This document shows, piece by piece, positions 1-24,415 of a stretch of 64,000 nucleotides of DNA. Source of the DNA: Blastococcus sp. URHD0036 (GTDB lineage Bacteria; Actinomycetota; Actinomycetes; Mycobacteriales; Geodermatophilaceae); NCBI RefSeq assembly GCF_000701365.1, contig NZ_JNIK01000013.1:124001-188000 (forward strand), in the 5' to 3' direction. Position numbers and translations under genes: made by a program. The notes below the pieces were generated by a model. That model ran no database searches. It worked only from the letters and a program-made list of their open reading frames with translations, and was not told the DNA's origin. Every line of letters begins with the position of its first letter. Position 1 is the first letter of the stretch.

Positions 1-273
1 CGTGATCCCGATGACCTCGTGCAGCAGGGCCAGCTTGAGCTGCCCGTACCCCTGGCCGCCCAGGTCCGGACCGAGTTGCGTCGCCCACAGCCCGTGGTCG
101 CGCACCTCCTGCTTCAACGGGTCGACGATCGCCTTGAGCTCGGGGCTCATCGGGCGCTTGAACTGCTCCTTCGGGAAGGCGTAGTCGAGGGGGACGACCT
201 TCTCCTTCACGAACGTCCGGGCCCAGTCGAGCTTCTCCTGGTACTCCGGGTCGGTACTGAAGTCCCACGCCAT
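1..273 (-). CDS. Acyl-CoA dehydrogenase, N-terminal part (cut by window edge)
   Basis: Reads leftward from ATG at 273; only about 91 residues are in the window. The visible protein (MAWDFSTDPEYQEKLDWART...) is the typical helical N-terminal domain of acyl-CoA dehydrogenases, which oxidise acyl-CoA thioesters with FAD in beta-oxidation-like pathways. A GGAGAGGAG ribosome site precedes the ATG. It is divergent from the SDR gene at 535, and the shared upstream region holds two copies of a 27-bp operator, so it probably belongs to the same regulon as the clusters at 9.6-20.4 kb. Substrate cannot be judged from this fragment. Confidence 0.85.
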   Translation of the reverse strand, partial: MAWDFSTDPEYQEKLDWARTFVKEKVVPLDYAFPKEQFKRPMSPELKAIVDPLKQEVRDHGLWATQLGPDLGGQGYGQLKLALLHEVIGIT

Positions 274-352: not shown

Positions 353-379
353 CAGAACATCGTTCTGGAGGGCAAGAAC
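353..379 (-). promoter_or_regulatory. Three-half-site operator, copy A
   Basis: On the minus strand: half-site GTTCTT, six bases, then CAGAAC-N3-GTTCTG (palindromic 15-mer). The same layout and spacing recurs at 424-450, 13788-13814 and 17379-17405. It lies about 80 bp upstream of the acyl-CoA dehydrogenase start and 155 bp upstream of the SDR start. An IclR-type regulator is the inferred binder. Confidence 0.7.
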
Positions 380-423
380 AGAAATCGAGCCCAAGACGCC
401 CCGCGGCGAGCTCCCGCTCTTGT

Positions 424-450
424 CCGAACGCCGTTCTGGCCGCTAGGAAC
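424..450 (-). promoter_or_regulatory. Three-half-site operator, copy B
   Basis: On the minus strand: GTTCCT, six bases, CAGAAC-N3-GTTCGG. Same orientation as copy A and 71 bp from it. It is the copy nearer to the SDR start (535). More degenerate than copy A in the outer bases, but the GAAC-N3-GTTC core is perfect. The rest of the 274-534 gap shows no further clear signal. Confidence 0.6.
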
Positions 451-534
451 AGTGTGTCGCCGGCCCCGTGGCCGGCCGGGGAGCGTGGGAATGACGCACG
501 ACGGGCTCATCATCGACGGCGGGTCCGGCACCCG

Positions 535-1341
535 ATGACGATCGAGGGCGCGCGACGGGTCGCGTGGGTGACCGGGGCCAGCCGCGGGATGGGCGCGAAC
601 ACCGCCGTGGAGCTCGCCCGCGCCGGGTTCGACGTGGCCCTCACCTCGCGGGACCAGGGCCGGCTCGACGCGGTGGCCGAGCAGGTGCGCGCGGTCGGCG
701 GCGCCGCGCTGCCCCTCGCCGCCGATCTCACGGACCGGCGGGCCGTCGAGGCCTTCGCCCAGGCGGCCGCCGACCGGTTCGGCCGCTGCGACGTCCTGTG
801 CAACATCGGCGTCTACCAGGGTCCGGCGATGCGGACGGTCGTGCTCGAGACCTCGCTGGACGAGCTCGCCGCGAGCCTGGAGGCCGACGTCGTCGCCCCT
901 GCTCTCCTCTGCCGGCGGGCGGTGCCGCTGATGCTGGAACAGGGCGGCGGGACGGTCGTGAACATGAGCTCGAACGTGGTGGTGCTGGACCCGCGCGCCT
1001 CCGTGGCGACCACCGGGTGGAGCTTCGCCTACGCCGCCGGCAAGGCCGGGATCGACCGCCTGGCCCGGATCCTGGACGCGGAGCTGGGCGACCGGGGCAT
1101 CCGGGCCTTCACCGTCCAGCCCGGCATGGTCGCCTACGGGGAGAAGCTCGCCGAGTTCCTGGCCAAGTACGCCGGCGCCCCGGTGTCGCCCCCGGAGGCG
1201 ATCGGGCCGGGTGTCGTCTGGCTGGTCGAGTCCCCCGACGCCGACGCGCTCAGGACGACGCGGATCGACCTGCCGCGGTTGACCCACGAGCACGGGCTGC
1301 TTCCCGGCTGGGGCGGCCCCGGCTCCCCGCATCCCGCCTGA
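535..1341 (+). CDS. Short-chain dehydrogenase/reductase (SDR)
   Basis: 268-residue classical SDR, expected to use NAD(P)(H) to interconvert an alcohol and a ketone. The Rossmann motif TGASRGMG is at residues 11-18, an NMSS serine strand follows, and the catalytic Tyr-x-x-x-Lys is in YAAGK. The usual NNAG motif reads CNIGV, a mild deviation. ATG at 535 was chosen because the Rossmann start follows directly; the reading frame is open far upstream but that part is not protein-like. A 15-codon ORF (491-538) overlaps the start as ATGA. The 3' end overlaps the convergent arsR gene by 92 bp. Substrate unknown. Confidence 0.85.
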   Translation: MTIEGARRVAWVTGASRGMGANTAVELARAGFDVALTSRDQGRLDAVAEQVRAVGGAALPLAADLTDRRAVEAFAQAAADRFGRCDVLCNIGVYQGPAMRTVVLETSLDELAASLEADVVAPALLCRRAVPLMLEQGGGTVVNMSSNVVVLDPRASVATTGWSFAYAAGKAGIDRLARILDAELGDRGIRAFTVQPGMVAYGEKLAEFLAKYAGAPVSPPEAIGPGVVWLVESPDADALRTTRIDLPRLTHEHGLLPGWGGPGSPHPA

Positions 1342-1621
1342 CGAGCGCGATCGCGACGAGCTGGTCCTGCAGGTCGGCCAGGACGTCGCGCCGCAGCGCG
1401 TAGAAGGCGTTGCGCCCGCTGCGGCGCATCTGCACGACGTCGGCCGTGACGAGGATCTTGAGGTGGTAGCTGGCCGTGTCCGCCGGCAGGCCCATCGACT
1501 CCTCGAGCTCGCCGCGGGGCACTTCGTCGTGCCCGGCGATCAGCGTCAGCATGCGACAGCGCACGGGGTGGGCCAGCGCCCGGAACACCTCGACCGTCCG
1601 GTCCGCGTCCACGCCGGTCAC
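1250..1621 (-). CDS. ArsR-family winged-helix transcriptional regulator
   Basis: 123 residues from a GTG whose GTGA overlaps the stop of mhpC, so it is the last gene of the mhpA-mhpB-mhpC operon. The N-terminal 95 residues fit the ArsR/SmtB winged helix (FRALAHPVRCRMLTLI, then ADTASYHLKIL as recognition helix). I see no cysteine metal site, so it is probably a small-molecule sensor of the ArsR type. The last ~27 residues (DAGSRGRPS...) are a basic, low-complexity tail lying antisense to the SDR gene, a 92-bp convergent overlap. A role in controlling the mhp genes is inferred from position only. Confidence 0.75.
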   Translation of the reverse strand: MTGVDADRTVEVFRALAHPVRCRMLTLIAGHDEVPRGELEESMGLPADTASYHLKILVTADVVQMRRSGRNAFYALRRDVLADLQDQLVAIALVRRDAGSRGRPSREAARARGSTAAGRSASS

Positions 1622-2463
1622 CGGCTCGCGAGGAAGTCGACCATCAGCCGGTCGTAGGCCTCGGGCTGCTCCCACTGCGGCCAGTGCCCGGCGCCGGAGA
1701 TCAGCCGGAACTCCCCGGCCGGCAGCGTGTCCGCCATGGCCATCCCGGCGCCGGCGGGCCCCGACGGGTCGTCCGACGTCCAGATCACCAGGGCGGGCTG
1801 CGCGATCGACCGGAGCTCGTCGTCGGTGACCAGGTTGCGCGCCCGGATCTCGGGGTCCTGCAGGCACAGCAGGTGCCGCATCGAGTCGGCGAAACCCGGC
1901 TGCGAGTAGATGCCGCGCCGCACGTCGACCAGTTCGTCGGTCACCGACGACGGATCGGCCATCAGCCACTCCAGGCGGGCCCGGATGCGCTCGGGGGACG
2001 GGTCGTCCGCGGCCGCCTGGCTCAGCGAGCGGATCCGCTCCATGACCTCGGGGGTGGCCATGGTGCCGCCGGGGGTGTTCAGCACCAGCCGGTCGACGCG
2101 CTCCGGGTGGGCAGCGGCGAACTTGATCGCGACCCAGCCACCCAGGGACTCCCCGCACAGGTGCGCCGACGGGACGTCGAGCACGTCCAGCAGCTGCCGG
2201 AGGTGGTCGACGTAGTCGGCGATCTCCAGGTCCCGGTCCGCGTGGGTGGTGAAGCCGTGCCCGGGGAAGTCGTAGGCGATCACGCGGTGGTCGCGGGCGA
2301 GCGCCTCGAGGTTGCGGGTGAACGCCTCCACGTGCCCGCCGGTGCCGTGCATCAGCACGAGCGCCGGCCCCGCGCCGGTCTCCAGGACGCGGGTGCGCCA
2401 CTCCCCCACCTGGACGTAGCGCTGGGTCAGCGGGAGGTGGTTGATCGAGGTCCAGATGCTCAT
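1618..2463 (-). CDS. mhpC: 2-hydroxy-6-oxonona-2,4-dienedioate hydrolase (alpha/beta hydrolase)
   Basis: 281-residue alpha/beta hydrolase that would cleave the C-C bond of the ring-fission product made by MhpB, giving 2-hydroxypenta-2,4-dienoate plus a dicarboxylic acid. Visible: oxyanion HG in LMHGTGGH, nucleophile elbow GESLGG, acid residue around WTSDDPSG and catalytic His in GAGHWPQWEQPE, in the order of meta-cleavage product hydrolases. ATG at 2463 overlaps the mhpB stop (ATGA), and its own stop overlaps the arsR GTG. Assignment rests on motifs plus operon with mhpA and mhpB; the exact substrate chain is inferred. Confidence 0.85.
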   Translation of the reverse strand: MSIWTSINHLPLTQRYVQVGEWRTRVLETGAGPALVLMHGTGGHVEAFTRNLEALARDHRVIAYDFPGHGFTTHADRDLEIADYVDHLRQLLDVLDVPSAHLCGESLGGWVAIKFAAAHPERVDRLVLNTPGGTMATPEVMERIRSLSQAAADDPSPERIRARLEWLMADPSSVTDELVDVRRGIYSQPGFADSMRHLLCLQDPEIRARNLVTDDELRSIAQPALVIWTSDDPSGPAGAGMAMADTLPAGEFRLISGAGHWPQWEQPEAYDRLMVDFLASR

Positions 2464-3431
2464 CGGGCTGCCTGTCCGGAGAGGGCCGTGCTCGCCTGCG
2501 GCACGGCGGTGACGGTCGCGAAGCCGGCGATCCACTCCGGGATCGGTCGGTAGAACGAGGAGCGCACGGTGTACGGCCCCGCCGCGCCGAGCGTGGCGAA
2601 GGCCGCGATCCAGGTGCGGACCTCGTGGGCGGAGTGGCCGCCCTCGGCGACGAACCAGTCGTTGTCCTGCTCGTCGATGGCCGCGGAGTCACCGGCGGCC
2701 AGCGAGCGCAGCACCAGTGCGTCCCAGTCCGGGTTGAGGGGCCGGAGCCCGGTGCCGCCGCCGGCGAACTCGACGGCCGCCGCGAGCGTCCGGCCCTCGC
2801 GCTGGGCGCGCTGCTCCGGCGTGGGGTTGCGCCCGTGGGTGAGGCGCTGGGCGACCTCCGGCGGCGCCTCGGCCAGGCGCGGCACCGGCGGGTCGTGCGA
2901 GAGGCCGCCGGAGCCGATCACCAGCACCCGCCGGTCGAGCCCGGCGAGGGTCTGCCCGATCGCGTGGCCCAGGTGCCGCGCCCGGGAGGCGGGCCCCAGC
3001 GGCTCGGCGACGCAGTTGATGAAGACCGGGACGACGGGGACGCTGGTCAGCGAGTCGAAGAGGAACGTCAGCGGCTGCACGAACCCGTGGTCGACCTGCA
3101 TCGCCTCAGACAGGGCGAGGTCGACGCCGGCGTCCAGCGCTCCGCGGGCCAGCGCGTACGCCACGTCCCGGTCCACGTCCAGAGGCCCGGCCGGCAGCCC
3201 GTAGTCCCCCACGGCGGTCGCCGCGGCACCCACGCAGAACGGCGGCATCATGTCGTAGAGGAAGCCGTTGTAGTGGTCCGGCGCATAGAGGACGACGAGC
3301 TCGGGGTCGTAGTCGGCGACGAAGTCCCGCGCGGCGCCCAGGACCGAGTCCACCTCGGCCCGGACCTCGGGGGCCGGGTCGTTCCTCCCGATCAGGGGCG
3401 AGTGCGACGTCGCGACGAGGGCGAGAGGCAT
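2460..3431 (-). CDS. mhpB: 3-carboxyethylcatechol 2,3-dioxygenase (class III extradiol)
   Basis: 323 residues (E. coli MhpB 314). Fe(II)-dependent extradiol dioxygenase that opens 2,3-dihydroxyphenylpropionate next to the diol. The class III fold starts LALVATSHSPL, and the two histidines known to be essential in E. coli MhpB (His115, His179) fall at the same positions here (VDHGFVQP and SGGLSHDPP). Start ATG lies one base after the mhpA stop and the gene ends in an ATGA overlap with mhpC, so the three are translationally linked. Confidence 0.93.
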   Translation of the reverse strand: MPLALVATSHSPLIGRNDPAPEVRAEVDSVLGAARDFVADYDPELVVLYAPDHYNGFLYDMMPPFCVGAAATAVGDYGLPAGPLDVDRDVAYALARGALDAGVDLALSEAMQVDHGFVQPLTFLFDSLTSVPVVPVFINCVAEPLGPASRARHLGHAIGQTLAGLDRRVLVIGSGGLSHDPPVPRLAEAPPEVAQRLTHGRNPTPEQRAQREGRTLAAAVEFAGGGTGLRPLNPDWDALVLRSLAAGDSAAIDEQDNDWFVAEGGHSAHEVRTWIAAFATLGAAGPYTVRSSFYRPIPEWIAGFATVTAVPQASTALSGQAAR

Positions 3432-3432
3432 G

Positions 3433-5082
3433 TCAGGCCTCGACGGCCTCGAGCGAGTCGGCCGGCAGGACGGCCCCGGCGGCGGGGAGGGCCGGCGCCA
3501 GCCCGATCGCGTCGCTGACCGCCCGCACCATGGCCGAGGCCCGCTGCGCCGGGGACGCGCCCGCGACCACCCGGTCGGGCCGGACGAGCACCACGGTGTC
3601 GGGGCGGGTGTCGAACCACTCCTTGAGCCGCCCGGTGCGGTCGCCGACCACGGTCACGTCGTCGGCGTCCTGGTCGGGCCAGGAGAGCTGGCAGGCCGGG
3701 CGCAGCGCGACCAGGCGCCCGCCGAGGCGCCGGAACCGGTCCAGCGCGTCGTCGTCGAGCAGCGCCCGCGGGTCGTTGTTCCAGACCAGCAGCGCGAACC
3801 ACGGCCCCAGGACGTCGTCCAGGAGGACGTCGGCGCGCTCGCGGGTGTCGACCCGCGGCTGGGGGAACAGCCGGCCGACCGGGGAGGGCTGGGCGACCGA
3901 CTCGGCGAAGCTGAGCGCCCCGGCGGTGAAGGTCGGCATCGGCTTGAAGCGCATCTCCACCAGATAGCGCTTGGCCGAGGGGATCGCGGTGATGCCGCGG
4001 AAGAAGACGTCCCGAGCGCGGGCGACCAGCGTGTTCGTGGGCGAGATGACCCGTCCGACGAGCGTCGACAGGTCGATCATCGAGCGGGCGTGGCCGTGCC
4101 GCTCGGCGTCGTAGCTGGCGAGCAGCGAGGCGTCGCAGCGGCCCTGGAGGACGGCGGCGAGCTTCCACGCCAGGTTGCTCGCGTCGCGGATGCCGCTGTT
4201 GTAGCCCTGGCCCTGCCAGACCGGCATGAGGTGTGCCGCGTCGCCGGCCAGCAGCACCCGCCCGGCGCGGAAGTCGGAGACGATGCGCGAGTGGTGGGTG
4301 TAGACCCGCCGGCGCACGATGTCGACCCGCTCGGGATCGGGCACGAAGCCGTCCAGCAGTTCGGCGATGAAGCCGGGCTGCTCGACCATCTCCTCGGTCT
4401 CCCCGTCGAAGAGCATGAACTCGAAGCGGCGGATCCCGTGCGGGATGCTGATCGAGGCGTAGGGACGGCGCGGGTCGGCGCCGACGATCGCCCCGGGCTG
4501 GCCCAGCGGGTCGTTGCGCAGGTCGATGACGAGCCAGCGGGTGCTCGACGTCCTGCCCTCGAAGCCGATGCCGAGCGCGGTGCGGGTGGCACTGCGGCCG
4601 CCGTCGGCACCGACGACGTAGGACGCGGTCACCTCACCGGCGTGCGCACCCTCCAGGGTGAGCGTCACGCCGGCGTCGTCCTGGCGCAGGCCGGTCATCC
4701 GGGTGCTCCACAGCACCTCGACGTGCGGGTAGCGGTCGAGGCCCTCGAGCGACACCTGGTCGGCGAGCGGCTGGACGAACCCGTTGCGCCGGGGCCAGCC
4801 GTACTCGTCGGTGCGCGGCGCGATCTCCGCCAGGACCTTCTTGTCCCCGTTGAGGAAGATGAGCCGCTGGTTCGGCACGGTGTGCGGCAGCACGCGGTCG
4901 ACCAGCCCCGCGGTCTGGAACGTGCGCAGGCACTCGTCGTCCATGCCCACGCCGCGGGGGTAGTCGATGATCTCGGGCCGGTCCTCGACCAGCAGGACGC
5001 TGATCCCGTAGCCGCCGAGCAGGTTCGCCGTCATCAGACCGACGGGGCCGGCTCCGACGATCACCACGTCCCGATGCGTCAT
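3433..5082 (-). CDS. mhpA: 3-(3-hydroxyphenyl)propionate hydroxylase, FAD monooxygenase
   Basis: 549 residues (E. coli MhpA 554). NADH-dependent class A flavoprotein monooxygenase that ortho-hydroxylates 3-(3-hydroxyphenyl)propionate to the catechol used by MhpB. N-terminal GAGPVG nucleotide-binding loop (residues 10-15), mid-protein DG motif in [10 protein letters not shown], and the second FAD motif [17 protein letters not shown] at 5082 has a GAGGTGGC ribosome site; an upstream in-frame start adds 19 unlikely residues. First gene of the mhpABC-arsR operon and divergent from the IclR gene at 5147. Confidence 0.9.
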
Positions 5083-5095
5083 GCCACCTCGTTCG

Positions 5096-5120
5096 ATAGT
5101 TACAACTGAGGTTGAATTAT
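5096..5120. promoter_or_regulatory. Candidate operator in the mhpA/iclR divergent promoter
   Basis: Imperfect inverted repeat ATAGTTACAAC-TGAG-GTTGAATTAT in the only AT-rich patch of the 64-bp gap between mhpA and iclR. It sits 14 bp upstream of mhpA and 27 bp upstream of the regulator start, a usual place for an autoregulated divergent IclR operator. It does not match the three-half-site operator found elsewhere in the window. Confidence 0.5.
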
Positions 5121-5146
5121 CTGAGCCGGAACGTAACATCGGCTCG

Positions 5147-5881
5147 ATGGAGGGTCAAGGAACGCCGGAGCCGCCCCGGCCCCTCCCGGAACCCCGGCCG
5201 GACACCTCCGCTCCGGCGCGGACCTTCGGCAACCGGACGCTGGCGCGGGGCCTCGACGCGCTCATCGCGGTGGCCGCGGCACCGGACGGGATGACCGTGC
5301 AGCAACTGGCCGCCGTCCTCGGCGTCCACCGGTCCATCGCCTACCGGGTGGTGCAGACCCTGCTCGACGTCGGACTCGTCCGCACCGACGACGAGCGCAC
5401 ATACCGGCCCGGCTCCCGGCTCGCGACCATGGGGGCCGGCGGCTCCTCCGGCCTGCGGGCGGCCGCGCTCCCCCCGATGCGCCGGCTCTGCGACCGGCTC
5501 GGCGCGTCGGTGGTGCTCGTCGTCGTCCAGGGCGACTCGGCGGTCGCCGTCGACCTGGTCCGGCCGACCACCCCCGGACCGCACCTCGCGCTGCGGCAGG
5601 GACGGCGCACCCCGCTGGACGCCGGACCCACGGCCGACGCCCTGCGGTCGGCCGACGCCCCCCGGGACGGCGAACCCGTCGGGGTGCAGCAGGCGCGGGA
5701 GCTGGGATGGGCCGCCGGCGCGGGCGCGGACGGGAACGGCGTGCACGAGGTCGCCGCGGTCGTCCCGGGCACCGTGCCACGCGCCTGCCTCACGGTGGTG
5801 ACCCACCTGGCCGAGCGGGCGCGCGGGGCCGGGCCGGCCGTCGCCGCCGCGGCCCGGGAGGTGGCCGACCGCCTGCGCTGA
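5147..5881 (+). CDS. IclR-family regulator, likely control of mhpABC
   Basis: 244 residues. Helix-turn-helix within [20 protein letters not shown] (about residues 48-67) followed by an IclR effector domain with low-complexity Pro-rich N-terminus. It is divergent from mhpA with an AT-rich operator-like sequence between them. The ATG at 5147 was preferred over upstream in-frame starts that run into the mhpA promoter. It is clearly paralogous to the IclR at 9652-10338 (shared [27 protein letters not shown] patterns) and less similar to the IclR at 5904. Substrate-sensing of a phenylpropionate intermediate is inferred. Confidence 0.85.
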
Positions 5882-5903
5882 GCAGGACGTGACAGCAGAC
5901 CGA

Positions 5904-6683
5904 TCAGGGAGCCGCGCCGGGCAGGAGGCGCCCGCGGGCGATGGTGCTCGCCAGCCCCGCGGCGGCCGCGCGGACAGCGGCGACGTGCAGCTCGGGACGC
6001 AGCCGCGTGGTCGGGCCGGTGACGCTCACCGCGGCCACCGCCTCCGTCCCGCCGACCAGCACCGGCGCGGCGACGCAGGTGATCCCGACGGCGGACTCCT
6101 CGTGCTCGAACGCGACCCCGGCCTCGAGCACCTCCGCCAGTTGCCGGGCCAGGATGCCGGCCGCCACGACCGTGCGGGGCGTGCGCCGCTCCAGCGGACC
6201 GGACAGCACGCTCCGGCGCAGCTCCGGGTCGGCGTGGGCCAGCAGCACCTTGCCCAGGGCCGTGCAGTGGACCGGCATGCGCCCGCCGGTCCGGGACGGG
6301 ACGGCAGCCTGGCGGTGGCCGCCGATCTTGGCGACGTAGACGACCTCAGCGCTCTCCCGGACCCCCAGGTGCACCGTCTCGTGGGTGCGCTCGTACAGGT
6401 CCTGCAGGAAGGGCATCGCCAGCTCGAGCAGGCTGCGCTCCACCGACGCGAGCATCCCGAGCTCGAAGAGCCCGCCGCTGAGCCGGTAGCCGCCCTCCAC
6501 CCGGTCGAGCAGGCGGTTGGTCACGAGCTCGCCGACCAGCCGGTGCACCGTGGCCTTGTGCAGGCCGGTGCGACGCACCAGCTCGGCGAGCGCCACCGTC
6601 CGGTCGTCGGGGGTGAAGGCGCGCAGGATCGTCACCGCCTTGCCCAGGACGGTGTTGCGGTCCGCTTCCTCACCCACCGGCAC
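5904..6683 (-). CDS. IclR-family regulator, likely control of mhpDFE
   Basis: 259 residues from GTG at 6683. HTH region VALAELVRRTGLHKATVHRLVGEL at about residues 29-52, then a full effector domain with GKVLLAHADPELR and GITCVAAPV motifs typical of IclR proteins. Divergent from mhpD, 104 bp apart; the gap contains the small palindrome TCGCT-C-AGCGA at 6704-6714, a possible operator. Convergent with the upstream IclR gene, only 22 bp between stops. In E. coli the mhp regulator MhpR is also an IclR protein, which fits. Confidence 0.88.
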   Translation of the reverse strand: MPVGEEADRNTVLGKAVTILRAFTPDDRTVALAELVRRTGLHKATVHRLVGELVTNRLLDRVEGGYRLSGGLFELGMLASVERSLLELAMPFLQDLYERTHETVHLGVRESAEVVYVAKIGGHRQAAVPSRTGGRMPVHCTALGKVLLAHADPELRRSVLSGPLERRTPRTVVAAGILARQLAEVLEAGVAFEHEESAVGITCVAAPVLVGGTEAVAAVSVTGPTTRLRPELHVAAVRAAAAGLASTIARGRLLPGAAP

Positions 6684-6787
6684 GCCTCACGGCCGGGACC
6701 GTATCGCTCAGCGAGACGCAGCGCTGGGCCCCGGCACCCCCGCGCGAGGAGGGTGAGCGGCGCCACGTCGTCGTCCGGGAGCGGAGC
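6684..6787. promoter_or_regulatory. Divergent promoter region iclR/mhpD
   Basis: 104-bp gap between two divergent genes. It holds a perfect 5+1+5 palindrome TCGCTCAGCGA (6704-6714) close to the iclR start and a GGAGCGGAGC ribosome site before mhpD. No clear -10 hexamer stands out. Confidence 0.4.
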
Positions 6788-8598: not shown

Positions 8599-9620
8599 GC
8601 GACGGCACGGGCACGCCCATCTTCGTCCAGGACGTCACCCTCCGGGACGGCATGCACGCCATCCGGCACCGGATCACCCCGGACGACGTCAGGCGCATCG
8701 TCACCGCGCTCGACGCCGCCGGGGTGGATGCCATCGAGGTCGCGCACGGCGACGGCCTGGCCGGCGGGTCGCTGAACTACGGCCCGGGCTCGCACACCGA
8801 CTGGGAGTGGATCGAGGCCGCCGCCGACGTCCTCCAGCGGGCCCGCCTGACCACCCTGCTGCTGCCGGGCGTGGGCACCGTCGAGGAGCTCAAGCACGCC
8901 TACAGCCGCGGCGTCCGGTCGGTGCGGATCGCCACCCACTGCACCGAGGCCGACGTCTCCGCCCAGCACATCTCCACCGCGCGTGAGATCGGGATGGACG
9001 TCTCCGGCTTCCTGATGATGAGCCACATGGCCCCGGCGGAGGAGCTGGCCCGGCAGGCGAAGCTCATGGAGTCCTACGGCGCGCACTGCGTCTACGTCAC
9101 CGACTCCGGCGGCCGGCTGACGCTGACCGGCGTGGCCGAGCGGGTGCGCGCCTACCGCGACGTGCTCGACGCCGGCACGGAGATCGGCATCCACGCCCAC
9201 GAGAACCTGTCCCTGTCGGTGGCCAACTCCGTGGTCGCGGTGGAGAACGGCGTGTACCGGGTCGACGCCTCGCTGGCCGGGCACGGCGCGGGCGCGGGGA
9301 ACTGCCCGATCGAGGCCTTCGTCGCCGTCGCCGACATCTACGGCTTCGACCACCGGTGCGACGTCTTCGCGCTGCAGGACGCCGCCGACGACATCGTCCG
9401 GCCGCTCCAGGACCGGCCGGTGCGCGTCGACCGCGAGACGCTGACGCTCGGCTACGCCGGTGTGTACTCGAGCTTCCTGCGGCACGCGGAGGTGGCGGCG
9501 GCGGACTACGAGCTCGACGTGCGCTCGATCCTGCTCGAGTGCGGCAAGCGGAAGCTGGTCGGCGGCCAGGAGGACATGATCACCGACATCGCCCTCGACC
9601 TGGTGGCGGCGAGGGCCTGA
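8595..9620 (+). CDS. mhpE: 4-hydroxy-2-oxovalerate aldolase
   Basis: 341 residues. Class II, Mn-dependent aldolase that splits 4-hydroxy-2-oxovalerate into pyruvate and acetaldehyde. [13 protein letters not shown] carries the metal-binding Asp and catalytic Arg/His; [12 protein letters not shown] carries the two metal-ligand histidines. Starts with an ATGA overlap on mhpF and is followed by a short terminator-like hairpin (9629-9648). The pathway from hydroxyphenylpropionate to acetyl-CoA and pyruvate is therefore complete in 1.6-9.6 kb. Confidence 0.95.
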
Positions 9621-9628
9621 TCCGCCTC

Positions 9629-9648
9629 CTCCGTCCCGCGGGGCGGAG
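9629..9648. terminator. Hairpin between mhpE and iclR
   Basis: Inverted repeat CTCCGTCCCG/CGGGGCGGAG with one G-T pair, in the 31-bp gap between two convergent genes. No U-tract, as usual in high-GC actinobacteria. Confidence 0.45.
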
Positions 9649-9651
9649 TGG

Positions 9652-10338
9652 TCAGGTCACCGCCGCGCTGAGCGAGTCGGCGGCCTTGACGACGCTCGCC
9701 GTGGCGTCGTGGGCCCGCTGCTCGACGTGCGTGATCAGCGCCAGGCAGGCCCGCGGGTGCACTCCGTGGATCGGCGCCGCGACCGCGTGCGCGCCGGCTT
9801 CGACCTCGCTCTGGCTGTAGGCGAAGCCGGCCTCGCGCACCTTGCGCACGGGCTCGGGGTCGTCCGGGCTCGGCGGTAGTGCGGAGCGCAGCGCGTAGGC
9901 CGCCGCCCCGCGGTCGAGCGGAGCCCGCTCGCCCTGCCGGAAGGCGATGTGGTGCCCGGCGGAGATCGGCACGGCCATCTCGACGGCCACGGCCGATTCG
10001 CCCTCGACGACGAAGAGCGCCACGGACGCCCCCACCCGGTCGGCGAGCTCCTGCATGACCGGGAGCGCCGTGGCGCGCAGGCCCGGCAGGTAGGAGTGCG
10101 ACAGCGCCGCGAGGCGGGCGCCGCCGTGGTAGCGGCCGTCGCGGCCGGCGTGCACGAAGCCGTAGTCGGCGAGCGTCTGCAGGATCCGGTAGGCGATCGA
10201 CCGGTGCACGTCCAGCACCCGCGCGAGCTCCTGCACGGTCATGCCGGTCGGGGACTCCACGACGGCCAGCAGCGCGTTGAGCCCGCGCGCGAGCGTCTGG
10301 GTCCCCGACTGCGGGGTTCGTTCCTGGGCCGGAGGCAC
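9652..10338 (-). CDS. IclR-family regulator, candidate master of the 27-bp operator regulon
   Basis: 228 residues. HTH in [20 protein letters not shown] and an IclR effector domain ending in LALITHVEQRAHD. The only in-frame start before the esterase stop is GTG at 10338. It is the last gene of the minus-strand series PPOX (13746), mycofactocin-type SDR, zinc ADH, esterase, IclR, with gaps of 44, 2, 52 and 52 bp, so probably one operon. The operon's promoter region carries the 27-bp operator, hence this protein is my best candidate for its binder. Paralogous to the IclR at 5147. Confidence 0.85.
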   Translation of the reverse strand: MPPAQERTPQSGTQTLARGLNALLAVVESPTGMTVQELARVLDVHRSIAYRILQTLADYGFVHAGRDGRYHGGARLAALSHSYLPGLRATALPVMQELADRVGASVALFVVEGESAVAVEMAVPISAGHHIAFRQGERAPLDRGAAAYALRSALPPSPDDPEPVRKVREAGFAYSQSEVEAGAHAVAAPIHGVHPRACLALITHVEQRAHDATASVVKAADSLSAAVT

Positions 10339-10390
10339 ACCGGCAGGGTACGGCGTGACCCGCTCCGGCCCGGCCCCGCGCGACCGGCCC

Positions 10391-11359
10391 TCACCCCTCC
10401 CGGGGGGCGAAGGCCGTGCGGAGGGCCTCGTGGATGTCGCGCAGGAACTGCGCCGTCCGGGGGGTGCGCGGCGGCGCACCGAACCCGCCGTGGATGACCC
10501 CCGGGTAGACGTGCAGCTCGGTCGGCACCCCCGCCCCGGACAGCCGGACGGCGTAGTCGACGTCCTCGTCGAGGTACGCGTCGACGTCCCCCACCCCCAC
10601 GAAGGCCGGCGCGAGCCCGCGCAGGTCTTCCGCGCGCGCCGGGGCCGCCGTCGGCGGGACGTCCCCGCCGGCCAGCGGGCCCAGGTAGGCCGCCCAGGCC
10701 AGCCGCTGGGCGCGGATGCTCCACAACCCGGGGTGGCCCGGGTCCTCGATCGCCCGGATCGACGCCGTCCGCTCCCGGTCGTCCAGCATCGGGTAGACGA
10801 GCAACTGCAGGGCCGGCTGCGGCCGGCCGACGTCCCGCAGCCGCAGGCACAGGGCGGCGGCCAGACCGGCGCCGGCGCTGGCCCCGCCCACGACCAGCCG
10901 CGCGGGGTCCAGTCCGAGCGGGGTCGCGTCCTCGACCACGCGGCTCCACACCGTCTCCGCGTCGTCCAGCCCGGCCGGGTAGGGGTGCTCGGGGGCGAGT
11001 CGCCAGTCCACCGAGACGACGGCGCAGCCCAGGTCGACCACCATCCGCTCCAGCCGGCCGTCGTTCTCGTCGAGGTTGCCCATGATGTAGCCACCACCGT
11101 GCAGCCAGACCAGGCAGGGCAGCGGGCCCTCACCCTGCGCCGGGCGGTACCAGCGCACCCGGACGTCGGGCCGCCCGTCCACCCCCGGGACCACGGCGTC
11201 GGTGCGCGTGACCCGCGGGTCCGCCGGCGCGGGCGGCGCCGCGGCTGCCGCGTAGGTGCGCCGGATCGTGTCGATGCTGGTGAAGTCCCAGCGCGGCAGG
11301 AGGGGGAAGATCTCGAGCGTCCCCGGCTCGACCCGGGCCTCGAGGTCGATGGGGGGCAT
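10391..11359 (-). CDS. HSL-family esterase/lipase (alpha/beta hydrolase fold-3)
   Basis: 322 residues. Hormone-sensitive-lipase-type carboxylesterase: oxyanion motif HGGGY, nucleophile in GGASAGAG, acid in DAYLDEDVDY and His in VIHGGF. I chose ATG at 11359 because GGAGG lies seven bases upstream; an upstream in-frame ATG at 11398 lacks such a site. Would hydrolyse an ester of the unknown substrate handled by the neighbouring dehydrogenases. No signal peptide, so cytosolic. Confidence 0.88.
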   Translation of the reverse strand: MPPIDLEARVEPGTLEIFPLLPRWDFTSIDTIRRTYAAAAAPPAPADPRVTRTDAVVPGVDGRPDVRVRWYRPAQGEGPLPCLVWLHGGGYIMGNLDENDGRLERMVVDLGCAVVSVDWRLAPEHPYPAGLDDAETVWSRVVEDATPLGLDPARLVVGGASAGAGLAAALCLRLRDVGRPQPALQLLVYPMLDDRERTASIRAIEDPGHPGLWSIRAQRLAWAAYLGPLAGGDVPPTAAPARAEDLRGLAPAFVGVGDVDAYLDEDVDYAVRLSGAGVPTELHVYPGVIHGGFGAPPRTPRTAQFLRDIHEALRTAFAPREG

Positions 11360-11411
11360 CGGTCGTCCTCCGTCGATCAGGTGGGTTGCGGCGGCCATCA
11401 GACCACGCCGG

Positions 11412-12359
11412 TCAGGCCGGGCCGATGTCGAGGACGACCTTGATCCCGCCCACGGTCCGGTCCGCCGCGACCCGGAACGCCTCGGCGGCGTCCTCCATCG
11501 GGAACCGGTGGGTGATCAGGGTGTCGGCGATCTCCGGCCTGGCGGCGAGCATCTCCGCCGCCTGCTGCATCTCCCGCCGGCCCTCGAACGACGAGTAGCC
11601 CAGCGAGGCCACCAACGTCACCTCCTTGCGCAGCATGGAGGTGTAGGGCACGTCGAGCCCGCCGTAGTGGACGCCGAGGACGGCGATCTTCCCGCCCGGC
11701 CGGACCCGGTCGACGGCGCTCTGCAGCGCGCTGGCCGAGCCGGCGGCCTCGATGACCACGTCGTAGAGGTCGCCGTCGGGCTCGGCGAAGCCCAGCCGCT
11801 CCCGCGCCGCATGCTGGTGCGGGTGTCGGGCCACGAGGGCGACGTGCGCGGCACCCTGCGCGGTGGCGGCCGCGGCGGCGAGCTGACCGACGCTGCCCCC
11901 GCCGATGACGACGACCCGCGCGCCGGGGCCCGCGCCGCCCATCCGCGCGCCGTGCCACGACACCGACGCCGGCTCCGCCAGGGAGGCGCTGGCGACGTCG
12001 AGCCCACGGGGCAGCGGGATCAGCTTGTGGGCGGGCACCTGGTACCGCTCGACCATCCCGCCGTCCTGCAGGATGCCCAGCGCCCGCTGCGTGGACATCG
12101 CGCAGAGGTTGTTGCGGCCCTCGCGGCAGTAGCCGCACTCCCCGCAGCCGAACATGCCCTCGACCATGACCGGCGTGCCGTCCGCCCGGACGCCGGCCAG
12201 CTCGTGACCGAGCACGCGGGTCGTGCCGGCCGCCAGGTACCCCAGGTCGGAGGCGCAGATGCCGGCCGCCCGCATGGTGATGACCTCACCCGCGTGCCCC
12301 GGCGGCTCGTCGACCTCGACGAGGACCGGCGCGCCCTCCTGCCCGCGGACCGCCCGCAT
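11412..12359 (-). CDS. Zinc-dependent alcohol dehydrogenase (MDR family)
   Basis: 315 residues, slightly short for MDR alcohol dehydrogenases (about 340). Catalytic zinc residues in AAGICASDLG and GHELAG, structural-zinc lobe CGECGYC-REGRNNLC, and NAD-binding GGGSVGQLAAA. Starts two bases after the SDR stop at 12362. Together with the SDR and the esterase it suggests stepwise ester cleavage and alcohol oxidation of an unidentified substrate. Confidence 0.88.
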   Translation of the reverse strand: MRAVRGQEGAPVLVEVDEPPGHAGEVITMRAAGICASDLGYLAAGTTRVLGHELAGVRADGTPVMVEGMFGCGECGYCREGRNNLCAMSTQRALGILQDGGMVERYQVPAHKLIPLPRGLDVASASLAEPASVSWHGARMGGAGPGARVVVIGGGSVGQLAAAAATAQGAAHVALVARHPHQHAARERLGFAEPDGDLYDVVIEAAGSASALQSAVDRVRPGGKIAVLGVHYGGLDVPYTSMLRKEVTLVASLGYSSFEGRREMQQAAEMLAARPEIADTLITHRFPMEDAAEAFRVAADRTVGGIKVVLDIGPA

Positions 12360-12361
12360 CC

Positions 12362-13228
12362 CTAGCCCACCGCTGCGGCGTGCTTGATGAGCGAGCCCGC
12401 GTCCACGCGGATCTGCTGACCGGTGATGTACCGGGACTCCTCGCTGGCCAGGAAGAGGACGAGGTTGGAGATGTCCACCGGCTCCACCCACGGGATCGGC
12501 ATGGCCTGCCAGGCGACGAAGGCGGGCTTCACGTCGTCCAGCTCCGGCTTCTCCAGGTCGGGCCGGAAGACCTTGTACAGCTCGTCGTTGTGCAGCAGGT
12601 GCGTGTTGACGTTGGTCGGGTGGATGGCATTGACCCGGATGAAGCGGGGCGCCAGGTGCAGGCACATCTGCTCGACGTAGGAGATGAGCGTGCGCTTGGC
12701 CCAGCTGTAGCCGGCGCCGCCGGGCCCGAACTCCGGGTTGTCCGCGGCGCCCTTGAGCATCCCCGCGGTGGAGCCGGTGACGACGATCGAGCCGCGGTCG
12801 CGCAGGTGCGGGATCGCCGCCGCGACGGCGTTCATGACACCGAGCAGGTCGACGTCGGAGGCGTCCACGAAGTCCATCGCGTCCGCGGCGTCGCCCTTGC
12901 GCATCGGCATGATCCCGGCGTTGGCCGCGACGATGTCCAGGCCACCCAGCTCGGCGACCCCGGCCTCGACGGCCTCGCGCAGCTGCGCCCGCTCGCGGAC
13001 GTCGGCCTGGCGGGTCACGATGCGCCGGTCCAGCGCCTCGACCTGCCGCGCGGTCTCGGCGAGGTCCTCCGGCCGCGACAGCGGGTACAGGTTGGACTCG
13101 ATGTCGGCGCAGATGTCGACGGCGATGATGTCGGCGCCCTCCTGCGCGAGGCGGACCGCGTGACTGCGGCCCTGGCCACGGGCCGCGCCGGTGATCAGCG
13201 CGACCTTGCCTTCCAGACGTCCTGGCAT
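12362..13228 (-). CDS. Mycofactocin-coupled type SDR oxidoreductase
   Basis: 288 residues. The start LEGKVALITGAARGQGRSHA plus the DIIAVDIC and the insert ESNLYPLSRPEDLAETARQV are hallmarks of the mycofactocin-coupled SDR family (TIGR03971 type), whose NAD(H) is bound tightly and recycled by the peptide-derived cofactor mycofactocin. Catalytic Ser in TGSTAG, Tyr-x-x-x-Lys in YSWAK. ATG at 13228 has GGAGG seven bases upstream. No mycofactocin biosynthesis genes are in the window; they would have to lie elsewhere. Confidence 0.87.
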   Translation of the reverse strand: MPGRLEGKVALITGAARGQGRSHAVRLAQEGADIIAVDICADIESNLYPLSRPEDLAETARQVEALDRRIVTRQADVRERAQLREAVEAGVAELGGLDIVAANAGIMPMRKGDAADAMDFVDASDVDLLGVMNAVAAAIPHLRDRGSIVVTGSTAGMLKGAADNPEFGPGGAGYSWAKRTLISYVEQMCLHLAPRFIRVNAIHPTNVNTHLLHNDELYKVFRPDLEKPELDDVKPAFVAWQAMPIPWVEPVDISNLVLFLASEESRYITGQQIRVDAGSLIKHAAAVG

Positions 13229-13272
13229 GGGGTACCTCCGTGGATCGGTGGGGGGATGGGGTGCGCCGCCGG

Positions 13273-13746
13273 TCAGGAGCCGGCGGGGACCGGGATCTTC
13301 GAGAAGTCCCAGCTGAGGACCTTCTCGGGGACGAGGCGCAGCCACGCGTGCCGGCCGTCGTAGGAGAAGCCCCGGCCGCCGGCGTACTTGTCGCTGAACA
13401 GCCGCTCCGGCGTCTCCAGCTCCGGGTGCGGGGCGTCGGTCCGCGGCACGTCGCCGACGACCTCGACGTCCCCGATCAGCTCGACGCCCGCGAGCTCCAG
13501 GAACTCGTGCCCCGAGTCCACGAGCACGCTGACGGCGGGCGAGCGCACGAGGTTGGCCCACCGCTGGCTGTTGGTGAGGGAGTTCAGCCACAGGGCGGAC
13601 CCGTCCCAGACGAACCAGAGCGCGGAGACGTGCGGCCGGCCGTCCGGGCCCACCGTCGCGACCCGGCACGTCCGCTGTTCCCGCAGGTAGCGGTCCCGCT
13701 CCTCGGGTGACAACGCGATCCGTCGACCTCGACGCTGCTCGGTCAT
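13273..13746 (-). CDS. PPOX-fold (pyridoxamine 5'-phosphate oxidase-like / FDOR) flavin protein
   Basis: 157 residues of the split-barrel flavin/F420-binding fold: RTCRVATVGPDGRPHVSALWF is the typical first strand pair, and NLVRSPAVSVLVDSG the next. Such actinobacterial proteins bind FMN or F420; which one cannot be told here. First gene of the minus-strand operon down to the IclR at 9652, with the 27-bp operator 42 bp upstream and the divergent CoA-transferase at 13906. Confidence 0.8.
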   Translation of the reverse strand: MTEQRRGRRIALSPEERDRYLREQRTCRVATVGPDGRPHVSALWFVWDGSALWLNSLTNSQRWANLVRSPAVSVLVDSGHEFLELAGVELIGDVEVVGDVPRTDAPHPELETPERLFSDKYAGGRGFSYDGRHAWLRLVPEKVLSWDFSKIPVPAGS

Positions 13747-13787
13747 GACCGCCCCTCCCGCGGCCCTCCGTTGGGCCTCGAGTCAGG

Positions 13788-13814
13788 ATTCTGCCCACAC
13801 AGAACAGTATTCTG
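13788..13814 (+). promoter_or_regulatory. Three-half-site operator, copy C
   Basis: ATTCTG, six bases, CAGAAC-N3-ATTCTG on the plus strand, in the 159-bp divergent region between the PPOX gene and the CoA-transferase. The following bases GCAAGCTGTC closely match those after the 17379-17405 copy (GCCAGCTGTC wording differs by one base), so similarity extends beyond the core. Confidence 0.75.
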
Positions 13815-13905
13815 GCAAGCTGTCGGTCGACGCGCGGCGGTGCGCGGGAGACGAGGGAGGGTCCATGGGCGTGCGCAGCCGAGGACGAGCCGGGCGGGTG
13901 GTCCG

Positions 13906-15132
13906 ATGACCGCCGTCATGTCCGGGGTGCGGATCCTGGAGGTCGCCGAGCACACGTTCACCCCGCTCGCGGCGGGCATCCTCGCGGACTGGGGTGCCAC
14001 CGTCATCAAGATCGAGCACGTCCAGCGGGGCGATGCGCAACGGGGCCTGGGCAACGTCGGTGGCCTGGACGTCGGCAGCGGTGGCGTCCACATGTTCATG
14101 GAGCACGCCAACCGGGGGAAGCAGAGCCTGGGCCTGGACCTGACAACCGATCGAGGGCGGGAGATCCTCTACGCCCTCGCCGCGACGTCCGACGTGTTCC
14201 TCACCAACAAGCTGCCCGCCGTCGCCCGCAAGCTGAAGGTCGACGTCGACGACATCCGCGCGGCCAACCCGGACATCGTCTACGCCCGCGGTACCGGGTA
14301 CGGGCCGCTGGGGCCGGACAAGGACCTGGGCGGCTACGACCTGCTGGGGTTCTGGGTGCGCGCCGGCATCGCCACGGCCATGCAGGTGTCCGGGTCCGAC
14401 CACCTGCCCGGCCCGCCGGGTGCGGCGTTCGGCGACTCCCTCGGCGCCATGGTCATCGCCGGCGGCATCTCCGCCGCGCTGTTCCACCGGGCGCGGACCG
14501 GCGAGGCCACCGTCGTCGACGTGTCCCTGCTGGCCACCGGCATGTGGGGGCTCGGCTCACCGATCGGGATGTCGCAGCTGACCGGTGTGCCGCAGTCCGC
14601 GGCCCCCCCGGAGGCCGCGGCGTCGCTCAACCCGCTGGTGGGCAACTACCGGACCGCCGACGGCCGCTTCATCTCGCTGTGCATGCTCCAGGGCTTCCAC
14701 TACTGGCCGGAGGTGGCGCGGGTCCTCGGCCACCCGGAGTGGACGACCGACGCGCGATTCACCTCCCACGAGAGCCTGCAGGAGAACTCGGGAGCGGCCC
14801 GCGACCTGCTGCGCGCGGCCTTCCTCGGCGACACCTTCGACAGCTGGAAGCTGCGGCTGCGTGACCTCAAGGGCCAGTGGGCACCGGCGCAGGACACGGT
14901 CAACATCGCCGACGACCCGATGGTGCGGGAGAACGGCTACCTGCTGGAGACGCGCAACGAGCAGGGCATCCCCTTCAGCCTGGTCAGCACCCCCGTCCAG
15001 TTCGACCTCGAGCAGCGCACACCCGGCCGCTCACCGGGCTTCAACGAGCACGGCGACCGGATCCTGGCCGACGAGCTCGGTCTCGACGAGGCCGCCGTCC
15101 TCCAGCTCAAGATCGACGGCGTGGTGGCGTAG
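13906..15132 (+). CDS. Class III (CaiB/BaiF-type) CoA-transferase
   Basis: 408 residues. Family III CoA-transferases move CoA between a donor thioester and a carboxylic acid through an aspartyl-CoA intermediate. N-terminal GVRILEVAEHTFTPLAAGILADWGATVIKIEH and the YARGTGYGPLG-DKDLGGYDL segment (with the likely catalytic Asp) are characteristic. ATG 13906 chosen; an ATG at 13918 is possible. Followed after 125 bp by the amidohydrolase gene. Probably activates the acid produced by the neighbouring oxidation genes. Confidence 0.88.
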   Translation: MTAVMSGVRILEVAEHTFTPLAAGILADWGATVIKIEHVQRGDAQRGLGNVGGLDVGSGGVHMFMEHANRGKQSLGLDLTTDRGREILYALAATSDVFLTNKLPAVARKLKVDVDDIRAANPDIVYARGTGYGPLGPDKDLGGYDLLGFWVRAGIATAMQVSGSDHLPGPPGAAFGDSLGAMVIAGGISAALFHRARTGEATVVDVSLLATGMWGLGSPIGMSQLTGVPQSAAPPEAAASLNPLVGNYRTADGRFISLCMLQGFHYWPEVARVLGHPEWTTDARFTSHESLQENSGAARDLLRAAFLGDTFDSWKLRLRDLKGQWAPAQDTVNIADDPMVRENGYLLETRNEQGIPFSLVSTPVQFDLEQRTPGRSPGFNEHGDRILADELGLDEAAVLQLKIDGVVA

Positions 15133-15257
15133 CCCGCCCCGCCCCGGTACACGTGCTGCACCGGAGGCTGCCGCCCACTCGACTCCCGGCCGCCGACGAC
15201 GGCCGGGCCCCCGCCGACCCCTGAGGCCGGCACCGGAACCCCACGGAGGAGCACCCC

Positions 15258-16520
15258 ATGAACGTCGAGGACATGCTGATGGTCAGCATCGACGACCACG
15301 TGATCGAGCCGCCCGACATGTACAGGAACCACCTGCCGGCGAAGTACATGGACCTCGCCCCGAAGTCCATCATCGACGAGAACGGCTTCGCGAAGTGGTG
15401 GTTCCAGGGGACCGCGCTGGGCTCGGTGGGGCTCAACGCCGTCGTCGGCTGGCCGAACGAGGAGTGGGGCCTGAACCCCTCCACGTTCGCCGAGATGCGC
15501 CCCGGTGCCTACGACATCCACGAGCGCGTCCGGGACATGAACCGCAACGGGATCCTCGCCTCGATGTGCTTCCCGTCCTACGCCGGGTTCAGCGCGCGGT
15601 ACTTCCAGCAGGCGGAAGACAAGGACCTGTCGCTGCTGATGCTGAAGGCCTACAACGACTGGCACATCGACGAGTGGTGCACGGCCTACCCGGGCCGGAT
15701 GATCCCGCTGGCGATCATCCCGGTCTGGGACCAGCCGGCCATGGTGGAGGAGCTCCGCCGGGTCGCGGCCAAGGGTGTCCGGGCCGTCACGATGCCGGAG
15801 CTGCCGCACGTCCAGGGCCTGCCCAGCTACCACGACCTGGAGTACTGGGGCCCCTTCTTCCAGGCCGCCTCGGAGCTGCAGGTCGTCATGTGCCTGCACA
15901 TCGGCCAGGGCTTCGGCGCCATCACGATGGCCCCCGACGCCCCGATCGACAACATGATCATCCTGTCCAACCAGGTGTCGTCGCTCGCGGCGCAGGACCT
16001 GCTCTGGGGTGGGGCGTTCCACAACTACCCGGAGCTGAAGGTCGCCTTCTCCGAGGGCGGCATCGGCTGGATCCCGTTCTACCTCGACCGCTGCGACCGG
16101 CACTACACCAACCAGCGCTGGCTGGGCCACGACTTCGGCGGCAAGCTGCCCAGCGACATCTTCCGCGAGCACTCGCTCGCCTGCTACGTCACCGACCCGA
16201 CGGCGCTCAAGGTCCGGCACGACATCGGGATCGACATCATCGCGTGGGAGTGCGACTACCCCCACTCCGACGCGATCTGGCCCAACGCCCCGGAGTGGGC
16301 GCACGCCGAGATGGGCGGCGCGGGCGTGCCGGACGAGGAGATGCACAAGATCCTCTGGCAGAACACCTGCCGGTTCTTCGGCTGGGACCCGTTCACGCAC
16401 ATCGCGAAGGAGGACGCCACGGTCGGCGCCCTCCGCGCCCTGTCCCCCGACGTCGACACCACGATCCGGTCCAAGCACGAGTGGCGCCGGCTCTACGACA
16501 AGCGCACGAGCTCCGTCTGA
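15258..16520 (+). CDS. Amidohydrolase-2 family metal hydrolase/decarboxylase
   Basis: 420 residues. TIM-barrel of the ACMSD/amidohydrolase-2 type, a family that includes decarboxylases and hydrolases of aromatic-pathway products. Metal-site candidates: DDHVIEPP near the N-terminus (in place of DxHxH), MCLHIGQG at mid-protein, and ECDYPHSD near residue 335. Strong GGAGGAG ribosome site. It is often found near CoA-transferases in actinobacterial catabolic islands. Reaction not assignable from sequence. Confidence 0.83.
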   Translation: MNVEDMLMVSIDDHVIEPPDMYRNHLPAKYMDLAPKSIIDENGFAKWWFQGTALGSVGLNAVVGWPNEEWGLNPSTFAEMRPGAYDIHERVRDMNRNGILASMCFPSYAGFSARYFQQAEDKDLSLLMLKAYNDWHIDEWCTAYPGRMIPLAIIPVWDQPAMVEELRRVAAKGVRAVTMPELPHVQGLPSYHDLEYWGPFFQAASELQVVMCLHIGQGFGAITMAPDAPIDNMIILSNQVSSLAAQDLLWGGAFHNYPELKVAFSEGGIGWIPFYLDRCDRHYTNQRWLGHDFGGKLPSDIFREHSLACYVTDPTALKVRHDIGIDIIAWECDYPHSDAIWPNAPEWAHAEMGGAGVPDEEMHKILWQNTCRFFGWDPFTHIAKEDATVGALRALSPDVDTTIRSKHEWRRLYDKRTSSV

Positions 16521-16524
16521 CCGC

Positions 16525-16565
16525 GCAGGGCCCGGGGCACCCTCGTCGGGCGCCCCGGGCCCTGC
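16525..16565. terminator. Bidirectional terminator
   Basis: Perfect 14-bp inverted repeat GCAGGGCCCGGGGC / GCCCCGGGCCCTGC with a 13-base loop between the convergent amidohydrolase and phosphatase genes. Confidence 0.8.
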
Positions 16566-16571
16566 TCGTGG

Positions 16572-17357
16572 TCAGCGCTCGACGAGGTCGTCGCGCAGGA
16601 CGGCGAGCTCGGCCTCGGTCACCCCGGCGCCCAGCAGGTACTCCCGCGGGGAGCCGTGGGTCCGGCGCAGACCGTCCAGGAAGCCCTGCATCACCCCGCC
16701 GTCGACGGTGTTGCGCTGCGGCTCCTGCAGGTGCACCCGGTCGGCGTAGAAGTCCAGCGACCGCAACTGCGCCATCATCCGGTCCAGCGACTCGTTGGTG
16801 CGCACGTAGTCGGCCACGACGGCGTCGTCCGGGACCCCCACGGTCGACAGCAGCAGCGCCGCCAGGATCCCGGTGCGGTCCTTGCCGGCGGCGCAGTGGA
16901 AGAGCGCCGGCATCCCGTCGTCCACGAGCAGGTGCACCGCCCGGGCGATGCGCTCGGCACTGAGCTCGACCATGCCGACGTAGAAGGGGCCCAGCACCTC
17001 GGAGATCTGCGCCGGGGCCTGCTCGGCGACAGGCGTGGAGAGGTCGGCCGGCTTCGGGACCCGGAAGGGGATGTTGACGACGGCGATGTCGCTGTCGGCC
17101 AGGAGTCCGCAGCCCTCGGCGGCGGACTCCTTGGCGAACCGCAGGTCGATGACCGTGCGCAGTCCGATGCGGGAGCGCAGCCACTCGAGGTCTCCCTCGG
17201 TCATGAGCTGCGGCGTCGCACTGCGGAACAGCCGGCCCCGCCGCACCCGGCCGCCGCCGACGACCGGGAGACCACCCAGATCCCGGAAGTTGAGCACGCC
17301 CTCGGGAACCCACCCGGGGTCCGTGGCATCCGTCTCCTGCACTCGGCGATCCGTCAT
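16572..17357 (-). CDS. PtpB-like tyrosine (dual) phosphatase
   Basis: 261 residues. NFRDLGG near the N-terminus and the P-loop HCAAGKDRTG (Cys nucleophile, Arg) place it in the Y_phosphatase3 / PtpB-like family; such enzymes dephosphorylate phosphotyrosine or phospholipids. ATG at 17357 chosen over longer in-frame starts because it has a GGAG upstream and the longer version would cover the operator. The 27-bp operator lies 22-48 bp upstream, so this phosphatase seems to share regulation with the catabolic genes. Confidence 0.85.
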   Translation of the reverse strand: MTDRRVQETDATDPGWVPEGVLNFRDLGGLPVVGGGRVRRGRLFRSATPQLMTEGDLEWLRSRIGLRTVIDLRFAKESAAEGCGLLADSDIAVVNIPFRVPKPADLSTPVAEQAPAQISEVLGPFYVGMVELSAERIARAVHLLVDDGMPALFHCAAGKDRTGILAALLLSTVGVPDDAVVADYVRTNESLDRMMAQLRSLDFYADRVHLQEPQRNTVDGGVMQGFLDGLRRTHGSPREYLLGAGVTEAELAVLRDDLVER

Positions 17358-17378
17358 GCCCCGACGCTCCAGCACAGA

Positions 17379-17405
17379 GTTCTGCTGGTCAAGAACTTCG
17401 TTCTG
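17379..17405 (+). promoter_or_regulatory. Three-half-site operator, copy D
   Basis: GTTCTG, six bases, AAGAAC-N3-GTTCTG, in the 311-bp gap between the phosphatase (minus) and the first solute-binding lipoprotein (plus). Core AGAAC-TTC-GTTCT is a perfect palindrome. Confidence 0.75.
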
Positions 17406-24408: not shown

Positions 24409-24415
24409 CAACTGC

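Follow-up and report, generated by a model that had tools for sequence, protein, structure and literature searches.

The catabolic island and its operator sites

The stretch of DNA analysed here, called the window, is the 64,000-nucleotide interval C12:124001-188000, where C12 is contig NZ_JNIK01000013.1 of Blastococcus sp. URHD0036 (genome 5.18 Mb, 19 contigs). It carries four copies of a 27-bp motif, at 353-379 and 424-450 on the minus strand and at 13788-13814 and 17379-17405 on the plus strand, all where an original prediction made from the window alone had placed them. They belong to a set of seven sites in a catabolic island that begins to the left of the window. The subject of this report is the motif as an operator, and its candidate regulator, a TetR-family gene on the same contig. 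The sites are as follows, with bit scores from the covariance model described below.

S1, C12:90568, between an acyl-coenzyme A (acyl-CoA) dehydrogenase gene (minus) and a solute-binding protein gene (plus)
S2, C12:94345, between a thioesterase-like gene (plus) and the TetR gene (plus), which run in the same direction
S3, C12:119659, between an amidohydrolase gene (minus) and a cytochrome P450 gene (plus)
S4, 353..379 (C12:124353), minus strand, 80 bp before the acyl-CoA dehydrogenase start at 273; 30.2 bits
S5, 424..450 (C12:124424), minus strand, 85 bp before the start of a short-chain dehydrogenase (SDR) gene at 535; 23.6 bits
S6, 13788..13814 (C12:137788), plus strand, between a PPOX-like gene (minus) and a CoA-transferase gene (plus); 24.7 bits
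S7, 17379..17405 (C12:141379), plus strand, between a tyrosine-phosphatase gene (minus) and a solute-binding protein gene (plus); 26.8 bits

The GTTC start originally given for the motif does not fit the copy at 13788, which begins ATTC, and the pattern used for the genome scan, RTTCY-N9-GAAC-N3-RTTCKG, has R in first place. It has six exact matches genome-wide, all of them within C12:90568-141405, a stretch of 51 kb. When one mismatch is allowed, two of the additional matches are known sites read from the opposite strand; the others are the seventh site at C12:119659 and two copies outside the stretch (C13:399542 and C18:27157). With up to two mismatches there are 24 forward and 24 reverse matches, many of them outside the stretch, versus 3 and 3 for a reversed control pattern; within the window the count is 6 (the four sites and two overlapping opposite-strand readings) versus 0.29 expected. 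A covariance model built from sequence alone on 15 sites from three genomes scores the seven sites at 19.0-31.3 bits and everything else in the genome at 14.5 bits or less, barring opposite-strand readings of the same sites. The scoring covered 150 of the 1229 candidates from a first look; the seven sites match the model by construction because they were among those that trained it.

The strong matches are not scattered through the genome, and the idea of one shared operator with a regulon limited to one catabolic region is borne out. The sites had also been said to lie only in divergent promoter regions, which is right for six of the seven and wrong for S2.

Linkage of the operator to a TetR-family gene

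The TetR-family gene lies at C12:94393-95028 on the plus strand, about 29 kb to the left of the window, and has a GTG start; S2 ends about 22 bp before this start codon. Pfam recognizes the TetR_N helix-turn-helix in the protein (E = 3.4e-9; 36.8 bits, the cut-off being 24), and a search of solved structures returns distant TetR proteins only, KstR included, with a best E of 2.7e-9.

Public genomes were searched with six aligned TetR proteins as the query. Of the 229 relatives found, the best 80 loci, 36-84% identical, were kept; one of them (L140) begins at the gene itself and was dropped, leaving 79 usable loci. About 310 bp around each TetR start was scored against the 24 positions of CAGAAY-N3-RTTCTG-N6-CAGAAY-N3-RTTCTG, with a threshold of at least 17. 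The operator is found at the TetR promoter in 65 of the 79 loci, and in 61 of 75 when the four Blastococcus/Trujillonella loci are excluded; control windows drawn from these loci reach the threshold in 6 of 790 cases. It stands beside TetR in 13 named actinobacterial genera. Among the family's weaker TetR homologs, which are 27-39% identical, none of 27 has it. The original prediction had named as regulator an IclR-family gene within the window, at 9652-10338; in the loci of its homologs (40-54% identical, searched over the whole locus of about 3.6 kb, own locus left out) the operator occurs in 0 of 19.

An acyl-CoA dehydrogenase gene is divergent from TetR and starts within 600 bp upstream of it in 43 of the 80 loci, while in our genome and in its relative G109 the two genes are about 4 kb apart, each with its own site. 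For acyl-CoA dehydrogenases of the type encoded at C12:90513, next to S1, the 250 bp upstream of the gene contain the operator in 51 of 55 cases at 55% identity or more, and in 1 of 10 below that. Eight of these 51 are not beside TetR, for example in the Frankia/Pseudofrankia loci L104, L107, L109 and L125. The operator accompanies both the TetR regulator and the S1-type acyl-CoA dehydrogenase. At the level of computation, then, we have sites that exist, are restricted to the island, are conserved, and are linked to these two genes; the protein that binds them is most likely the TetR-family product of C12:94393-95028, the binding being predicted.

Operator geometry

Among the 79 TetR upstream regions, AGAAY-N3-RTTCT occurs exactly in 61, and any other spacer from 0 to 12 occurs exactly in at most one. 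Pairs of these palindromes are 21 bp apart in 59 loci and 22 bp apart in eight, six of which are Frankia. Because the N3 spacer is near-exclusive and the pairs fall 21-22 bp apart, the compact 15-bp palindrome is most likely the unit, and the full operator is most likely two such units, CAGAAY-N3-RTTCTG, usually at 21 bp. One 39%-identical TetR (L049) has a single CGGAAC-AAC-GTTCTG ahead of the gene, with a score under 17 on the paired pattern; for another (L048) no palindrome is visible on inspection. The three half-sites originally described are there to be seen in the window. They are an incomplete view, given that the TetR relatives have four as two 15-bp palindromes; the three-half-site look most likely arises because, of the two units, the inner one is intact while the outer one has kept no more than its inner half-site.

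The alternative basic palindrome GTTCT-N8-AGAAC was tried and rejected, since exact AGAAY-Nk-RTTCT is found almost only at k = 3; RTTCT-Nk-AGAAY is exact at k = 8 in 39 of the upstream regions and at k = 9 in 5. If one mismatch is allowed, AGAAY-Nk-RTTCT at k = 0 appears in 20 of the 79, and most of these overlap an N3 site, as in AGAATATCCT.

Relatives with and without the island

G109 carries the island, and as the original prediction asked of relatives, the motif is kept at orthologous promoters: all seven have it, four exactly and three with one mismatch. The counterparts of the window sites are on contig C13 of G109, at 64725 (S4), 64802 (S5), 85382 (S6) and 90476 (S7, one mismatch). Over the seven sites, 106 of 112 half-site positions are identical between the two genomes, as are 49 of 77 spacer positions and 110 of 210 ungapped flanking positions, S2 being compared in the orientation shared by both.

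G110, of the same genus, is without the island and retains, from this stretch, only the acyl-CoA dehydrogenase (79170-80534), the operator (80551-80577) and TetR (from 80591), which is 73% identical to the C12:94393-95028 protein and is followed by a match of C12:144442-145605, the gene at the right side of the island. Nowhere in the G110 genome is there a close ortholog of the IclR gene at 9652-10338, the best match having 29% identity (E = 1.3e-6). In a search of 112 genomes of the family, a TetR of at least 73% identity is present in three, all with exact motif matches; among the other 109, exact matches occur in two only (one in G003, and two on different contigs in G068).

How these genomes came to differ can be put in a tentative scenario, to which we give somewhat under even odds. 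The module of acyl-CoA dehydrogenase, operator and TetR, which stands alone in G110, would have captured a 50-kb island in the two relatives via operator gain at seven promoters, one of them upstream of a gene run ending in IclR, giving a TetR-to-IclR cascade. Alternatively, G110 may have lost the island.

As a separate observation, contig C34 of G109 (L085) has a second, paralogous TetR (57% identical) from 12309, near two weaker operator-like sites at 6131-6162 and 8644-8675 (18.6 and 15.6 bits), possibly a daughter regulon.

Proposed mechanism and rival explanations

Taken together, this looks like a real, local and conserved regulon that is most likely run by the TetR protein. The explanation that we favor, at a probability of about 0.9 for the whole of it, is that the motif is the operator of a TetR repressor encoded at C12:94393-95028 and governing the island. 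One repressor dimer would occupy each 15-bp palindrome CAGAAY-N3-RTTCTG, and two dimers would sit on the same DNA face of the paired operator because the units are 21 bp apart. The cooperative binding suggested earlier has a layout compatible with two dimers, and is a prediction as far as binding itself goes. The repressor would act on its own gene, the two acyl-CoA dehydrogenase genes and the other site-bearing operons of the 51-kb island, and would be freed from the DNA by an inducer; an intermediate of the pathway, for example an acyl-CoA thioester, is the probable candidate for this role. The IclR gene at 9652-10338 may itself be a target, because it closes the minus-strand gene run beginning at S6.

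Several findings weigh against this explanation. The TetR promoter scores below 17 in 14 of the 79 loci; five of these have a site of at least 18 within 2.5 kb upstream, and of the remaining nine, seven show a 22-bp distance between palindromes. In G109 the paralogous TetR barely makes 17 (L090), and two 39%-identical TetR genes, in G106 and G061, are below it. The second palindrome of the 24-position pattern is partly post hoc because the pattern was written after viewing the upstream regions; the controls were scored with the same pattern. Within the island, the distance to the assigned genes is 163 and 365 bp for S3 and 264 bp for S7. The best reading of S2 differs between genomes, being exact on the minus strand in ours and on the plus strand with one mismatch in G109; in the reading common to both, ours has two mismatches and G109 one. 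Finally, meta-cleavage (mhp-like) genes lie inside the island with no operator site, and because of them the original claim of one regulator that "controls them all" is too wide.

Three IclR genes are encoded in the window, at 5081-5881, 5904-6683 and 9652-10338. The original choice of the last was a reasonable one, and the motif alone could not decide the regulator, because three-box sites of alternating direction have been described for IclR regulators. Read that way, the protein of 9652-10338, or its paralog of 5081-5881, would bind the motif as an operator of the PcaU/PobR type: the boxes in the window fit this geometry, and the 9652-10338 gene is inside the regulated region and 91% conserved in G109. 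Against it, G110 keeps the operator with no close ortholog of the gene, no site is found at the promoters of any of the three window IclR genes, and the operator goes with TetR in 65 of 79 loci and with the IclR homologs in none of 19. We therefore rejected the IclR protein as the binder on the G110, IclR promoter and homolog-locus results, and consider this rival very unlikely.

More improbable still is that another regulator of the region binds the motif, such as the second TetR at C12:104224-104919, which Pfam places in the TetR type, or the product of window 24398-25033, which is TetR-like by reading and is kept in G109 and G110. The former has no match in the G110 stretch C48:50001-130000, where the operator persists, and may own a different palindrome, TTGGACCGATCGGTC; the promoters of both genes lack a site, and the linkage in 65 of 79 loci is explained by neither. 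That similar copies recur within one region could also point to a mobile or structural repeat with no regulator at all, a reading to which we give next to no credence, since the half-sites are conserved while spacers and flanks drift, the copies lie upstream of genes, and the operator is conserved beside TetR in the 13 named genera.

Window genes around the sites

The genes of the window next to or downstream of the four sites are listed here.

1..273, minus strand, start of a second acyl-CoA dehydrogenase gene that continues left beyond the window (Pfam Acyl-CoA_dh_N/M/1); predicted S4 target
535..1341, plus strand, short-chain dehydrogenase (Pfam adh_short); predicted S5 target
9652..10338, minus strand, IclR-family gene (Pfam HTH_IclR, IclR_C); possible downstream S6 target
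13273..13746, minus strand, PPOX-type (PNPOx_N) protein (Pfam PNPOx_N), heading the minus-strand run that ends in the IclR gene; predicted S6 target
13906..15132, plus strand, CoA-transferase of the CaiB/formyl-CoA transferase type; predicted S6 target
15258..16520, plus strand, amidohydrolase-like protein following the CoA-transferase, named by reading, with no NCBIfam match
16572..17357, minus strand, tyrosine phosphatase family protein (Pfam Y_phosphatase3); predicted S7 target
17669..18913, plus strand, solute-binding lipoprotein; possible target both of S7, which is 264 bp from its start, and of the second motif described below (17440-17459)

The NCBIfam matches of the CoA-transferase are below curated cut-offs, for example formyl-CoA transferase at 131.2 of 442 bits, and the lipoprotein has a weak match to a branched-chain amino acid binding protein, at 32.5 of 477 bits. 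The amidohydrolase-like protein has a 96% identical match in G109. The 51-kb stretch also encodes an acyl-CoA ligase, E1 dehydrogenase components, a second P450, flavoproteins and an enoyl-CoA hydratase, along with a meta-cleavage set of LigB dioxygenase, FAA hydrolase and acetaldehyde dehydrogenase. We infer that the substrate of the island is a hydrophobic ring compound degraded via CoA thioesters.

The second motif is the palindrome TTGGACCGATCGGTC, found at window 17440-17459, C12:108773-108792 and C12:106190-106209. With up to two mismatches allowed, our genome has 3 copies, every one of them inside the island; G109 has 2 and G110 has none. Looser copies are at C12:102319 and 103185. This palindrome may be the operator used by the product of C12:104224-104919, the second TetR gene, even though no copy is seen at the promoter of that gene. 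The IclR gene at 5081-5881 is a 51%-identical paralog of 9652-10338, and within the G109 stretch it is most similar to the ortholog of 9652-10338. In the promoter of a flavin adenine dinucleotide (FAD) monooxygenase gene (mhpA-like), the block running from GTTCGATAGTTACAAC onward at window 5091-5137 is largely kept in G109 and is a candidate site for one of the IclR regulators.

Comparison with known systems

What emerges is an exactly defined operator, together with a candidate regulator, for a TetR subfamily that shows this operator in the 13 named genera. Our genome and G109, which have the island, form a natural pair with G110, which lacks it, in which to see how a local repressor becomes an island switch. 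In the open-access literature we found no publication with this paired-palindrome operator and no TetR operator pairs 21 bp apart.

The closest working model is KstR, whose neighbor fadE34 is an acyl-CoA dehydrogenase gene. Our TetR protein would be a new member of a kind already known from KstR, that of autoregulated catabolic control. KstR (Rv3574/MSMEG_6042) is an autoregulated TetR repressor of mycobacterial lipid (cholesterol) catabolism that shares an intergenic region with fadE34, and its operator TAGAAC-N2-GTTCTA has 16 and 31 further intergenic instances, one region having two copies (PMC1995591). The likeness is in a TetR beside an acyl-CoA dehydrogenase gene, in autoregulation, in a nearly identical half-site and in the many target sites. 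The differences are that the KstR spacer is N2, whereas here it is N3 (exact in 61 of 79, with N2 exact in 0 of 79), that one KstR dimer is described on a single palindrome versus the 21-bp-spaced pair here, and that the sites here are confined to one island. Nor is our TetR protein a KstR ortholog, scoring 33.3 bits on the NCBIfam KstR model against a cut-off of 280.

BkaR (Rv2506/MSMEG_4718) is an autoregulated TetR that represses a divergent neighbor operon from two operator copies in the shared promoter (PMC3920632). The plan is similar, while its operator, GTTA-N-T-N4-A-N-TAAC, is different and the sites are few. More generally, a TetR regulator that has a divergent neighbor under 200 bp away is most likely to regulate that neighbor (PMC3511530).

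On the IclR side, PcaU, PobR and HmgR use three boxes of alternating direction, an arrangement predicted for 32 IclR groups, with predicted tandem sites mainly 19-21 nt apart (PMC8222616). The motif in the window is like these in its three alternating boxes, to which the loci of the TetR relatives add a fourth; it is unlike them in the family of its regulator, the operator here following the TetR gene and not IclR genes. A three-box motif is insufficient for assigning an IclR regulator.

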